Shown here in pieces: positions 7,356-12,146 of a DNA stretch of 64,000 nucleotides; the first letter of the stretch is position 1, and each line of letters begins with the position of its first letter. The stretch lies in contig CP060501.1 in the NCBI GenBank assembly GCA_024760545.1, positions 967,501 to 1,031,500 of the forward strand, in the 5' to 3' direction. The notes beneath the pieces are model-generated. The model ran no database searches, was not told the origin of the DNA, and saw only the letters and a program-made list of their open reading frames with translations. The stretch is from Nitrospira sp. Lineage in GTDB: Bacteria; Nitrospirota; Nitrospiria; Nitrospirales; Nitrospiraceae. The position numbers and the translations under genes are program-made.

Positions 7356-7721
7356 TCAGCGTTTCGTCACCGAGCGGACATCTAACATTCCCAGAAAGTG
7401 GCCCTCGATCGTCACTTGATCCCCGTCTTTGAGCAACACGGTTCCCATCTGACAGAGGGTCGCATAGCTGGCATCGACAACGCCGGTCTCATCCTCTACT
7501 GAAAAGGCCTGGATACACTTCTCCAATTTCGTCCTCTGGCCGATGAAGTGATTCATCCGGTAGTTCCGCACTGTGCCTTCCACCTGGACCACTTTCATCT
7601 TGTACGCTTCCGGATACGTGAACAATGAATTGATTTTTACCGGGTCGGCGGCCCATGCGGCAGATGCCAGCAGCCCTATAGTCAGCACCATCAGTCCTCT
7701 TGATCTCATCGTAGTCCTCAT
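7356..7721 (-). CDS. Secreted small OB-fold-like protein
   Basis: 121 residues; a start 12 bases downstream is possible. A Sec signal peptide ends at AWA-ADP. The mature part (VVQVEGTVRNY, KCIQAFSVEDETGVVDASY, GDQVTIEGHFLG) has the strand pattern of an OB-fold of the tRNA_anti / NirD-stress type, likely a periplasmic binding or stress protein. Two cysteines are present in the mature part. It is 27 bases downstream of the Lon-like protease gene and probably co-transcribed with it. Confidence 0.6.
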   Translation of the reverse strand: MRTTMRSRGLMVLTIGLLASAAWAADPVKINSLFTYPEAYKMKVVQVEGTVRNYRMNHFIGQRTKLEKCIQAFSVEDETGVVDASYATLCQMGTVLLKDGDQVTIEGHFLGMLDVRSVTKR

Positions 7722-7748: not shown

Positions 7749-8666
7749 TCAGTTGACCGGAACCTGACGCAGCGATTGTCCCGTCGCAGCGCTGTAGGCC
7801 TCCGCCAGCGTGTGCACTTCCATCACCTGGATGGATCGCTCGGCTCCGGTGAAATTGAGATGGCTATTGTCCAATCCGTCCGGCACGATCATCACACTTT
7901 TTTTGAGATCCCGACAGGCACTCATCTTATCCACCAGCCGTCCGACGGGTCTGATCTCAGAATCCGGCTCGATGGTTCCCGACATGCACACGTCTTGGCG
8001 AATCGGATCGCCGAGCAGTGCCGAAGCGATGCCCACGGCAAAAATCCCGCCCGCGCTGGGTCCGTCCAGCCGGGTCGGAACCAGAATGCGCACACTCAGG
8101 TATCGAGGATCATATCCCACCGCCCTTGTGGCAACTGCGACAGCCGTATGAAAAGAGTGGACAGATGCAGGAAGCAGGTTCGAATCGCCCAGAATCTCCG
8201 GCCCCTTTCCGTCGGCTTTGTATGCAACCGTGAGTTGCGCCACCAATCCTGCCCAAGAGCCGGTAATGAAACCGACCTTGTCCTGCCCGATGCTCAAGAG
8301 AGGTAACGGCAGAGATACTTCGGAGAACGGCAATGGTTTCCTACTGGGGAGCTGCCGTGACGGGTCGAGGGAGACAGTTCCGGATAGAGATGGCTGAAGG
8401 GCGTCCGACGGCGAAGGCTTTGGACTTGGGGAAATTTTGAGCGGTGAATAGTTTTTTGGCTCACCAAGTTGCCGGCAACCCGGCGACCCACGGTCAGTAT
8501 AAAGGTCCGTCTGCCCCTGGCGTGGGCAGACCCAGGTTTCAGCCCATCCTGGATGCTCAAGCGTTTGTATCCCTTCCAACATGCACAGCACCACCCACAA
8601 TACAAACCAGTGATGCGGGGGCAGCGGTTTCAAGAGGTCGCGGAACGTGCCCGGCCGGCTTCTCAT
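7749..8666 (-). CDS. Secreted Lon-like serine protease (S16 domain without ATPase)
   Basis: 305 residues. An N-terminal hydrophobic stretch (WFVLWVVLCMLEGIQTL) looks like a signal peptide or anchor; a Pro/Ser-rich linker follows (residues ~75-125). The C-terminal ~190 residues are a Lon S16 proteolytic domain: catalytic Ser in LDGPSAGG, SGTIEPDSEIRPVG in place of Lon's TGEITLRGRVLPVG, and catalytic Lys in RLVDKMSACR. There is no AAA+ domain, so it would act without ATP, outside the cytoplasm. An SH3-like role for residues 40-75 (Cys-containing) is possible. Paired with the OB-fold gene downstream. Confidence 0.8.
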   Translation of the reverse strand: MRSRPGTFRDLLKPLPPHHWFVLWVVLCMLEGIQTLEHPGWAETWVCPRQGQTDLYTDRGSPGCRQLGEPKNYSPLKISPSPKPSPSDALQPSLSGTVSLDPSRQLPSRKPLPFSEVSLPLPLLSIGQDKVGFITGSWAGLVAQLTVAYKADGKGPEILGDSNLLPASVHSFHTAVAVATRAVGYDPRYLSVRILVPTRLDGPSAGGIFAVGIASALLGDPIRQDVCMSGTIEPDSEIRPVGRLVDKMSACRDLKKSVMIVPDGLDNSHLNFTGAERSIQVMEVHTLAEAYSAATGQSLRQVPVN

Positions 8667-8755: not shown

Positions 8756-10030
8756 TCAACCCGGCAACGCCTGATACCACCCGTTGGCCTGGACGAGAGT
8801 CATTCTACTATCGAAAAGCCCGCTGACTCGATCATCCGTAAGTAATGTGGATTTGTGGCCATCTGCGATGATCTTCCCTGCCTTCAGGAAAACCACACGG
8901 CCAATCTCAGGGGGAATTTCATGCAGATGGTGAGTCACGAGCAGAACCGTCTTTCCTTTTGCGATCAGAGCGCGCAACAGATCAAGATACTGAAAGCAGG
9001 CCTTGAGATCGAGGCCGCTCGTCGGCTCGTCCAGCACCAGCACCGACGGGTCATGCACCAGCGCCCTCCCGAGCAGAAACCGCCTTTGCTCACCGGTGGA
9101 CAGATGGCCGAACCGTCGTCCGGCCAAGTGCGCAATACCCAACTCCTGCATCAGTTCATGTGCCCTCGCGACGTTTGCTTCGCCGAACTCTTGATACTCA
9201 TAGGTATCGTTGCTTGCATAGAAGCCAGAGAGGATGACGTTCACTCCCTCGGCACAGATCAGATAGTCTCGTTGAAGATCGTGCGAGACAATGCCGATTT
9301 GTTTCCGCACATCCCACACATTCCAGCGCTCTTCACCGAACAGCACAAGACGTGTTTCGTCCTTCGGCATCGCGTGGACTTCGCCCAATAATAACTTGAG
9401 TAGCGTCGATTTCCCCGCTCCGTTGGGTCCCACGATGGCCACATGTTCTCCGGCATGCAGCGCAAAGGAGAAATCCGAAAAGACGTAGGTCTCGCCTCGA
9501 TAGACTGTGGCATGTAGAATATCGAGTATTGGGGGAAGGTCGGCTGAACCGTGAATCTTTTTGGATAGATCGCCGACCGGCCGGCCAACGGATTGACCGG
9601 CGCGGCGAGCCCGCTCAAGGCCGGTGCGCGCCAACCCATCGACTCGTTCATTCTCTGGATGACCGTTGTGCCCCCTGACCCAGTGCCATTCGAGCGTATG
9701 GTCTGTAGCCAAGTTATCGAGACGTCGCCATAAATCCTCGTTCTTCACCGGTTCTTTACCGGCAGTCTTCCATCCTTTCCGTTTCCAGTTGTGGATCCAT
9801 TCGCTGATGCCCTTTTGAACATACTGCGAATCGGTATAGACCCGGGCCGTCACCGGCGAGGTGAACGATTCCAAGGCCTCGATAACCGCGAGCAACTCCA
9901 TGCGGTTGTTCGTCGTCGCCGGCTCTCCACCGCACAATTCTGTTTCCTGATCGCCATCCCGCAACAACACACCCCATCCCCCAGGCCCAGGATTCCCGCT
10001 GCACGCGCCATCTGTATAGATTTCGAGCAT
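8756..10030 (-). CDS. Fusion of ribonuclease HI and an ABC-type ATPase
   Basis: 424 residues in one unbroken frame. Residues ~1-145 are RNase HI with all four acidic active-site positions ([36 protein letters not shown]), which cleaves RNA in RNA-DNA hybrids. After a ~25-residue basic linker, residues ~168-415 form an ABC ATPase: Walker [10 protein letters not shown], variant signature LSTGEQRR, Walker [13 protein letters not shown], and H-loop THHLHEIP. The ATPase has no membrane part and resembles cytosolic ABC ATPases of the ModF/YlmA kind. Role of the fusion is unknown; the parts may simply be joined by loss of a stop codon, so both should be functional by motif. Confidence 0.88.
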
Positions 10031-10165
10031 TCAGTTCTTCCTTGGTTAATTCGCATCCGGATTGTACTACGATGTTTTCCATCCGAACCATGCCTGTCAT
10101 GACACATTCCCCACCATGCCACGTGACTCGATCGAAACACTTCAGTACAATAAGGCGTTAGTCGA

Positions 10166-10576
10166 ATGTGGTCTCTTGGAGCGAGTCATACCCTGCGAAC
10201 CCTTTTCCTTATCGGCACAGGGGGCTTCATCGGCTCAATTCTCCGCTACCTTCTGAGCGGGTACGTTCAACAACTGAGCAACAGCATCCAATTCCCATTC
10301 GGCACCCTTGCCGTTAATATCGTCGGGTGTGCAATGATCGGCTTTCTCGCCGAGCTCGCCGATCATCGTGGTGTCATCTCAGGAGAAGCACGGGCCTTTC
10401 TCATGGTCGGTCTGCTCGGCGGATTTACCACCTTCTCGGCCTTCGGCAACGAAACGATGAACCTGCTGCGCGACGGAGAACTGTGGTTAGCCGGAGGAAA
10501 TGTCATCGGCCATACGGTCCTGGGTCTTATCGCGGTATGGGCCGGCTACTCCACGGCTTATCTTCTCTGGAGATGA
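10166..10576 (+). CDS. crcB: Fluoride channel CrcB/Fluc
   Basis: 136 residues with four membrane helices. Family motifs are clear: GGFIGSILRYLLSG, the Asn-containing TLAVNIVGC, and GLLGGFTTFSAFGNE with the Phe/Thr/Ser track for fluoride. It works as a dual-topology dimer that exports fluoride. No fluoride riboswitch could be recognised in the 130 bases upstream. It is 3 bases ahead of a DUF190 gene, a common partner of crcB. Confidence 0.93.
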   Translation: MWSLGASHTLRTLFLIGTGGFIGSILRYLLSGYVQQLSNSIQFPFGTLAVNIVGCAMIGFLAELADHRGVISGEARAFLMVGLLGGFTTFSAFGNETMNLLRDGELWLAGGNVIGHTVLGLIAVWAGYSTAYLLWR

Positions 10577-10579
10577 TCG

Positions 10580-10924
10580 ATGCGTGTTGAAAGCGGCTGC
10601 CTTCTCAGGATCTTTTCCGGAGAACGGGACAAACACAATGGGCGACCGCTCTATGAATGGATCGTCGCTCAGGCCCATGCGCGGCAACTCGCCGGAGCCA
10701 CAGTTCACCGCGGGCTCATGGGATTCGGACCCCACACTCGCGTGATTCATACATTCAAGATCGAGCGTCTGGCTGAAGATCTCCCCATCACCGTTGAAAT
10801 AATTGATTCGCGCGACAAGATAGACGAGTTTCTCGCCTTCCTCGAACAGCAGGTCGTCTCAGACCTGCTCGCCACCCTCCAGCCGATTGCGATCTGCGTT
10901 CTTGAGCAACCTGCGTCATCGTAG
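10580..10924 (+). CDS. DUF190 family protein, CrcB partner
   Basis: 114 residues. The pattern LLRIFSGERDKHNGRPLYEW, then ATVHRGLMGFG, and VEIIDSRDKIDEFL is that of DUF190, a PII-like ferredoxin-fold family. These proteins commonly stand next to crcB and are thought to sense or modulate fluoride export, but no biochemical role is fixed. Starts 3 bases after crcB and is surely co-transcribed. Confidence 0.88.
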   Translation: MRVESGCLLRIFSGERDKHNGRPLYEWIVAQAHARQLAGATVHRGLMGFGPHTRVIHTFKIERLAEDLPITVEIIDSRDKIDEFLAFLEQQVVSDLLATLQPIAICVLEQPASS

Positions 10925-10982: not shown

Positions 10983-12146
10983 CTACGCCTCGGCAGGATC
11001 GGAGTTGATTTTCGCAGCTGGAGTCTTGTTCGTGGAAACAGGGGATTTCTTCAATGAGCCTGCGATCTTGGGGGTCTTCGTCGTCACATCGGCATTTTGG
11101 GCGCGATGCAGCAGCGCGTGATCCATCAGGACGAGAGCCATCATGGCTTCGGCAATTGGCGTCGCGCGGATGCCGACACAAGGATCATGGCGGCCGTTGG
11201 TCTCGACCGTCACTGGATTTCCGTGCTTATCGATGGACCGGCGCGGGATACGGATACTCGATGTCGGCTTGATCCCGATCGTCACGACAATATCCTGCCC
11301 CGTGGCAATGCCACCCAGAATACCGCCGGCATGATTCGTCACGAATCCCTCCGGCGTGAGTTCGTCACCATGTTCAGACCCACGTTGGGCAACCGAGGCA
11401 AAGCCCGCCCCGATCTCAACCGCCTTGACTGCATTGATGCCCATCATCGCCGCAGCTAAATCGGCATCCAATTTCGCGTAGACCGGCGCGCCCCATCCAA
11501 CCGGCACATGCTCAGCTACGGTCGTGATCCGTGCCCCCACTGAATCGCCAGCTTTCCGCAGCTCATCCATGAACAATTCCAGCGTGGGCACCAAATCCGG
11601 ATCGGCGGAGAAAAATGGATTCTGCCCCACGACGTTCCAATCTTTGAACGACAATTCATGAGGCCCCAGCTGGCTCAGATATCCCCGAATCACCACACCA
11701 TGCTTCTCGTTGAGCCACTTCCTGGCAATCGCAGCCGCGGCGACGCGAACGGCTGTCTCTCGGGCCGACGCGCGTCCCCCTCCTCGATAATCGCGAATGC
11801 CGTATTTCTGCCAGTAGGTGTAGTCCGCATGTCCGGGACGGAAGGTATCGATCAGATTCCCGTAATCGCGGCTCCGCGCGTCTTCATTGCGAATGAGCAG
11901 CGCAATGGGAACTCCGGTGGTTTGGCCTTCAAACACTCCGGACAGGATCTCCACGCGATCCGATTCCTGGCGTTGGGTCACATGCCGGGAGGTACCGGGC
12001 TTCCGGCGGTCGAGATCCTTCTGAATATCTTCCGAGGAAAGCGCGAGACCAGGCGGGCAGCCATCAACCACACACCCAATTGCCGGCCCATGGCTCTCAC
12101 CGAAGGAGGTGACGGTGAAGATTCTGCCAAACGTATTGCCAGCCAT
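10983..12146 (-). CDS. aroC: Chorismate synthase
   Basis: 387 residues. Last step of the shikimate pathway: EPSP to chorismate, with reduced FMN. Conserved blocks: [19 protein letters not shown] near the start, [29 protein letters not shown], and the later [17 protein letters not shown] with [11 protein letters not shown]. The C-terminus has a ~40-residue Lys/Ala/Pro-rich tail beyond the usual end, probably disordered. Starts 6 bases after aspS, forming the tail of the rluB-aspS-aroC operon. Confidence 0.96.

Follow-up and report, generated by a model that had tools for sequence, protein, structure and literature searches.

Proteins that join an N-terminal RNase HI domain to an unrelated C-terminal enzyme have a described representative in the mycobacterial RNase HI-CobC protein (MSMEG_4305 / Rv2228c), whose two domains are connected by a variable linker. 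The report on this protein (PMC7466739) presents it as one Actinomycetales lineage. According to that report, purifying selection acts on both domains and is stronger on RNase HI, and deleting the second domain had hardly any effect on growth in vivo. The same report states that the CobC domain influenced RNase activity in vitro, and therefore one half of such a protein can affect the other. Stand-alone bacterial RNase HI, as encoded by E. coli rnhA, has the same domain and catalytic residues as the protein described below but carries no C-terminal partner domain.

The other half of the protein described below has its own set of known relatives. E. coli ModF (b0760) likewise consists of ABC cassettes without a membrane domain, although it holds two cassettes in one chain and is encoded beside modE, whereas the Nitrospira ABC half has a single cassette and we noticed no mod genes next to the fusion. 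The proteins of PDB entries 4HZI (Leptospira interrogans, titled ‘orphan’) and 2IHY (Staphylococcus aureus) are single-cassette like the ABC half, but they are stand-alone chains with 26-28% identity to it. No established job of ModF-like proteins was found in the literature open to our search.

Nitrospira-type bacteria are known for nitrite and ammonia oxidation. In one of their genomes we examined a window, by which we mean the whole analysed stretch of 64,000 nucleotides (contig CP060501.1, positions 967,501 to 1,031,500), that contains a gene encoding RNase HI followed by an ABC ATPase. The pairing belongs to the known class of proteins in which an unrelated C-terminal enzyme follows RNase HI, and it shares with RNase HI-CobC the N-terminal RNase HI, the variable linker and the restriction to a lineage. 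However, its C-terminal domain is ABC_tran by Pfam and not CobC, and, unlike what is reported of RNase HI-CobC, its fusion state changed several times, with split versions occurring beside fused ones. Our searches of the open-licence PMC literature, as far as its text was accessible, returned no description of an RNase HI–ABC ATPase pairing; an earlier note, made from the letters of this DNA, had likewise recognized no standard family with this domain order.

The fused gene and its parts

The gene lies at positions 8756..10030 on the minus strand, an extent given by the open reading frame and by full-length orthologs. It starts with ATG, is preceded by a Shine-Dalgarno-like AAGGAAG read from the sequence 6 nt before that codon (10037..10043, minus strand), and runs without a stop across 424 residues to its terminal stop codon. 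Thus the earlier note was correct in placing both enzymes in one continuous frame (10030..8756, minus strand), and its claim that the catalytic motifs are complete in both halves agrees with the profile matches and the alignment of fused genes given below.

Residues 1-143 (9602..10030, minus strand) form the RNase HI domain, which is recognized by Pfam PF00075 (RNase_H, residues 3-138, 158 bits), by the NCBIfam ribonuclease HI equivalog PRK00203 (224 bits vs a cut-off of 160) and by PDB matches to E. coli RNase HI. Identity to E. coli rnhA is about 55%, and the rmsd is about 1.2 for 1f21. The candidate active-site residues are the acids D7, E45, D67 and D131 and the histidine H121, with roles assigned from the E. 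coli numbering. A linker of ~20 residues follows (residues 144-163; 9542..9601, minus strand), which stands out by its pLDDT and dN/dS, and this junction (9601-9542) is open in the window.

The remainder, residues 164-424 (8759..9541, minus strand), is a ModF-like single-cassette ABC ATPase domain, as judged from Pfam PF00005 (ABC_tran, residues 185-338, 93.5 bits), identity to ModF and fold. Its motif set is complete, comprising Walker A (residues 201-209; 9404..9430), a Q-loop at Q253 assigned by eye, the signature STGEQ (residues 311-315; 9086..9100), Walker B as VLVLDE with the catalytic glutamate (residues 330-335; 9026..9043) and an H-switch at H367, all on the minus strand. Motif positions were read from the sequence and the alignment of fused genes, and their roles are those usual for ABC proteins. 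No extra nucleic-acid-binding domain was found in the fused chain by Pfam.

Conservation was assessed in an alignment of 76 rows, corresponding to 75 distinct fused genes, that of the window included, plus a query row that repeats the window’s gene; two loci with masked stretches (L093 and L097) were left out of the fused set and of the trees described below, and identical ABC sequences were collapsed. D7, E45, D67, D131 and H121 are unchanged in 76/76 rows, and the core residues of Walker A, signature and Walker B vary little or not at all; H367 differs in 1/76 rows and Q253 in 2/76. In 80 pairs of moderate distance, simple Nei-Gojobori counting gave dN/dS values of 0.076 for RNase HI, 0.094 for the ABC half and 0.46 for the linker. 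By this measure, both halves are under strong purifying selection and the linker is fast-evolving. Linkers span 16-34 aa, are rich in Pro, Ala, Val, Gly and Ser as a family, and align poorly with one another when they come from different groups.

Given the family membership and the intact active site, the RNase HI half very likely cuts RNA/DNA hybrids, like its close homologs, and the ABC half very likely dimerises and hydrolyses ATP. An AlphaFold2 model of the single chain built with 98 sequences (mean pLDDT 83.9, pTM 0.60) has pLDDT values below 50 only at residues 145-163. The model therefore resembles two folded domains on a flexible string, with no sign of a fixed interface in the single chain.

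We also considered a separate ABC product made from an internal start. An ATG in frame ahead of the ABC half is present in 9/75 fused genes and some ATG, GTG or TTG within the searched stretch in 39/75, while a Shine-Dalgarno-like motif accompanies a candidate ABC start in 1/75. A plausible start is thus mostly absent from the 75 fused genes, the separate product was rejected, and the ABC half is therefore probably hardly made except within the fusion.

Relatives of each half and gene neighbourhood

The ABC half matches the C-terminal cassette of E. coli ModF with 38% identity over 230 columns (116 bits, BLASTP). ModF is also its best-scoring NCBIfam ABC model, yet the score of 156 bits is far below the cut-off of 459 for PRK10938, a model of the two-cassette protein. 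Among other ABC proteins of the same genome, the best match reaches 32% identity and 93 bits and one reaches 38% over 200 residues, under a different scoring that makes these values not comparable with the BLASTP figures for ModF. The best four Foldseek matches are to 4HZI and 2IHY (262-264 columns, TM-score 0.86-0.90 by target length), and ECF-type CbiO is also among the nearest folds.

The fusion is the only close RNase HI match in its own genome (4.81 Mb, 2 contigs). A second, weak RNase_H match (45 bits) is a 267-aa protein on the smaller contig (G000:C2:200424-200831; L119:1147-1950), near a frame that by eye resembles a macro domain. Two RNase HII matches exceed the Pfam cut-off (G000:C1:3464854-3465384 and C1:1352035-1352634).

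The gene aroC, for chorismate synthase (identified by Pfam for the window’s copy; 10986..12146, minus strand), is found next to the ABC or rnhA-ABC locus on its upstream side in many relatives. It is directly upstream of the ABC gene in 11/38 rnhA-less loci with a called ABC frame, and a small frame intervenes in 3 more; loci that have rnhA often carry it between aroC and the ABC gene. In the window, a plus-strand pair (10166-10924) consisting of crcB, which we take to belong to the fluoride channel family, and a DUF190 gene separates aroC from the fusion, and this pair is absent from many related loci. Directly downstream, at 7749-8666 on the minus strand, is a gene whose 305-aa product contains a Lon-type (S16) protease domain (Lon_C, 32.8 bits) and no other Pfam domain. 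This gene and one for a 121-aa protein (7356-7721) are found downstream of the fusion in many loci of the genus g1. No constant permease-like neighbour was found in the loci of the window’s own family, where neighbours were clustered and some annotated. The compared loci outside the family yielded no constant neighbour of the ABC gene, and therefore no function can be read from context there. In six loci of family f3 (L200-L205), the ABC gene is followed by a gene for a 359-367-aa protein that by eye has many hydrophobic stretches, and for which a scan of one member gave no Pfam match. A protein of ~300 aa that is MetF-like by eye comes after it.

Distribution and history of the fused state

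The earlier note proposed that the same fusion be sought in other Nitrospira genomes, and it is indeed common there. In an order-wide sample of 196 genomes, the ABC ortholog was detected at E <= 1e-60 in 119 and RNase HI at E <= 1e-25 in 102, and a genome was called fused when both matches were paired by place and lay in an open frame. By this definition 68/119 genomes with an ABC ortholog have the fusion, including 53/57 in genus g1, 10/25 in g12 and 5/15 in g14. It is absent from other genera of the family (0/11) and from family f3 (0/11). One of the 4 other g1 genomes (G019) is masked at RNase HI, and 6 more g1 genomes show no ABC match. The fusion is nearly fixed in g1.

Three further comparisons covered other sets of genomes. 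Among 35 genomes of the window’s own genus, its own included, 29 have a stop-free match covering at least residues 2-423 and one more (L034, G020) has an in-frame TGA; the same comparison revealed no fused match in other families of the order. A search of 245 genomes of the phylum, in which few candidates were scored per genome at a threshold of 1e-35, returned 34 stop-free full-length matches, all in family f1. In a named genome collection, the fused loci among the best 80 of 165 have Nitrospira, Nitrospirae or Nitrospiraceae titles, with the exception, among these same 80, of two fused contigs titled ‘uncultured Nitrosospira’.

The states other than fusion are best seen in a set of 198 loci with an ABC ortholog. 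This set is redundant because the same genome may enter via several searches, and ‘fused’ is defined in it by an open frame. It contains 129 fused loci, 16 in which rnhA is a separate gene ahead of the ABC gene, 51 without RNase HI and 2 cut by a contig end; of the 145 loci where RNase HI precedes the ABC gene, 129 have the open frame. The 16 include L034, which is probably a poor assembly, and the 51 include L096 and L207, which are one genome (RSF1/G019) with masked bases at the RNase HI place. The RNase HI frame of the split pairs stops after 154-156 residues (152 for L034, the doubtful locus), and a spacer with a stop and a new start separates the genes. The distance from the RNase HI match to the ABC match is 96-105 bp in all of these pairs but L163. 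In some genomes RNase HI is unlinked to the ABC gene. Relatives with two separate genes, which the earlier note had named as a refuting result, do exist (16/198 loci in this redundant set, L034 among them). Given these separate, unlinked and ABC-alone states, we regard the pairing as optional.

Two arrangements within the family deserve separate mention. In L163 (G139), rnhA is directly followed by the decayed remains of an ABC gene with stops in its frame, and an intact ABC gene lies ~1.2 kb further on, which looks like a recombination scar at the locus; at about 1320-2500, small frames that by eye are lipoprotein-like occupy the region between the ABC 5' remnant and the intact gene. In ten family members (G060, G099, G103, G124, G143, G145, G169, G178, G184 and G198), a distant RNase HI with 51-54% identity is encoded apart from the ABC gene in place of the common type, a pattern suggestive of a past replacement of RNase HI in the family.

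A tree of the ABC half requires 11 changes of the fused label; starred branches force at least 5 of these as first counted, and the total falls to 9 once L034, L096 and the edge row are omitted. The RNase HI tree, which resolves little, needs 5 changes (at least 1 forced), or 4 without the same three. An rpoB tree needs 9, at least 5 of them forced as first counted. This tree holds 60 of the 184 genomes with a match, hand-picked to cover all states, and therefore state frequencies in the rpoB set are meaningless. Fused and split groups alternate inside g12 and inside g14. Judged from these trees, the fusion state changed several times within the family, with joining and splitting not separable by the trees.

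Percent identities among hand-picked loci place the g12 RNase HI closer to g14 and the g12 ABC half closer to g1. The gene that we take by eye to be aspS resembles other g12 in the g12 loci, and the ABC gene and the downstream c4 are more like g1. This pattern suggests that part of the locus may have been transferred into g12. Module swapping, in which the halves would have different histories, was examined as a candidate and set aside, given that none of four groupings was rejected (p-AU 0.17 to 0.66) in tests that used 52 of 88 RNase HI rows and in which, for both ABC tests, the constrained tree outscored the quick free tree.

What the joined protein may do

The reading we favour, with moderate confidence, is that the fusion is a real and lineage-specific protein in which two largely independent enzymes, derived from neighbouring genes, are tethered to each other. 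Its starting points are observed directly, namely the frame, the domains, the conserved active sites, the in-frame linkers of many lengths, and the split and unlinked relatives. A housekeeping RNase HI gene would have become the immediate upstream neighbour of a gene for a soluble ModF-like ABC ATPase, and the two frames would then have been joined via a short flexible linker in several lineages. If the ABC half dimerises head-to-tail on ATP binding, as ABC cassettes do, each ABC dimer would carry a pair of RNase HI domains. Most likely the activities of the two halves serve largely separate jobs, with joining providing equal amounts and a shared location, and being roughly neutral or mildly useful. 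The dimer, the activities, the lack of strong coupling and the order of events are what we infer. Because close relatives carry both parts as separate genes, the halves most likely work side by side and not as one machine. In the mycobacterial precedent, the small growth effect of losing CobC agrees with this reading, whereas the in vitro influence of CobC on RNase activity counts against it. The several changes of state and the near-fixation in g1 also count against it, and repeated joining, if that was the direction, would hint at an advantage.

Other explanations must be weighed against this one. That the fusion is an artefact, arising from a lost stop codon or from the read error at 9540-9600 that the earlier note allowed for, is extremely improbable. 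Nothing in this window favours it, and the L034 linker, broken by apparent assembly errors, concerns one relative. Against it stand the in-frame linkers, varied in length, of 75 distinct fused genes. Stop-free full-length fused genes occur also in single-contig genomes (G022, G024, G105 and G133 among them), which excludes a read error at 9540-9600, and a fusion so conserved is not a chance lost stop in one strain. Relatives thus rule out both a read error and a fresh stop loss at the junction. It is also rather unlikely that the fusion matters for expression only, securing ABC translation or its ratio to RNase HI, and otherwise reflects pure drift. The general absence of internal ABC start signals from fused genes and the spacer with its stop and new start in split relatives would suit this explanation, and drift is favoured by the RNase HI-CobC authors (PMC7466739). 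However, a single event would be easier to reconcile with drift than the several state changes and the near-fixation in g1.

An ATP-regulated hybrid processor, in which the ABC dimer would sit on nucleic acid or ribonucleoprotein and its ATP cycle would load, move or gate the RNase HI domains, is in our judgement unlikely. It is consistent with the retention of both active sites in fused sequences, with the fusion being kept in 53 of the 57 g1 genomes that have the ABC ortholog, and with RNase HI being the direct neighbour in split loci too. But Pfam finds no added domain for nucleic-acid binding, 51/198 ABC loci lack rnhA (a redundant set in which L096 and L207 are one masked genome), and the linker is fast-evolving and unfolded in the model. 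The ATP-driven hybrid processing or delivery envisaged in the earlier note accordingly finds no support beyond the fusion itself, given the optional pairing and this linker. A more specific form, in which a dimeric ABC ATPase with two RNase HI domains clamps or moves along RNA/DNA hybrids by ATP, is quite unlikely; if true, neighbouring genes would have been joined more than once into an ATP-gated R-loop remover. We are very doubtful that the ABC half serves as ATPase to a membrane transporter with its permease gene elsewhere, RNase HI being a passenger. The nearest folds, 4HZI and 2IHY, are titled transporter ATPases, ECF-type CbiO is a further fold neighbour, and the hydrophobic protein follows the ABC gene in the six f3 loci. 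Even so, loci of the window’s own family, some of whose neighbours are annotated, have no constant permease-like neighbour, and the 38% identity is to ModF, a gene distinct from the transporter ATPase modC in the E. coli locus.

Nitrospira-type bacteria have a conserved RNase HI–ABC pairing for which the accessible open-licence literature gave no description. The fusion also offers one experimental handle on ModF-like ABC ATPases. Moreover, the fused, adjacent-split and unlinked versions found in close relatives constitute a natural series for asking what gene fusion does.
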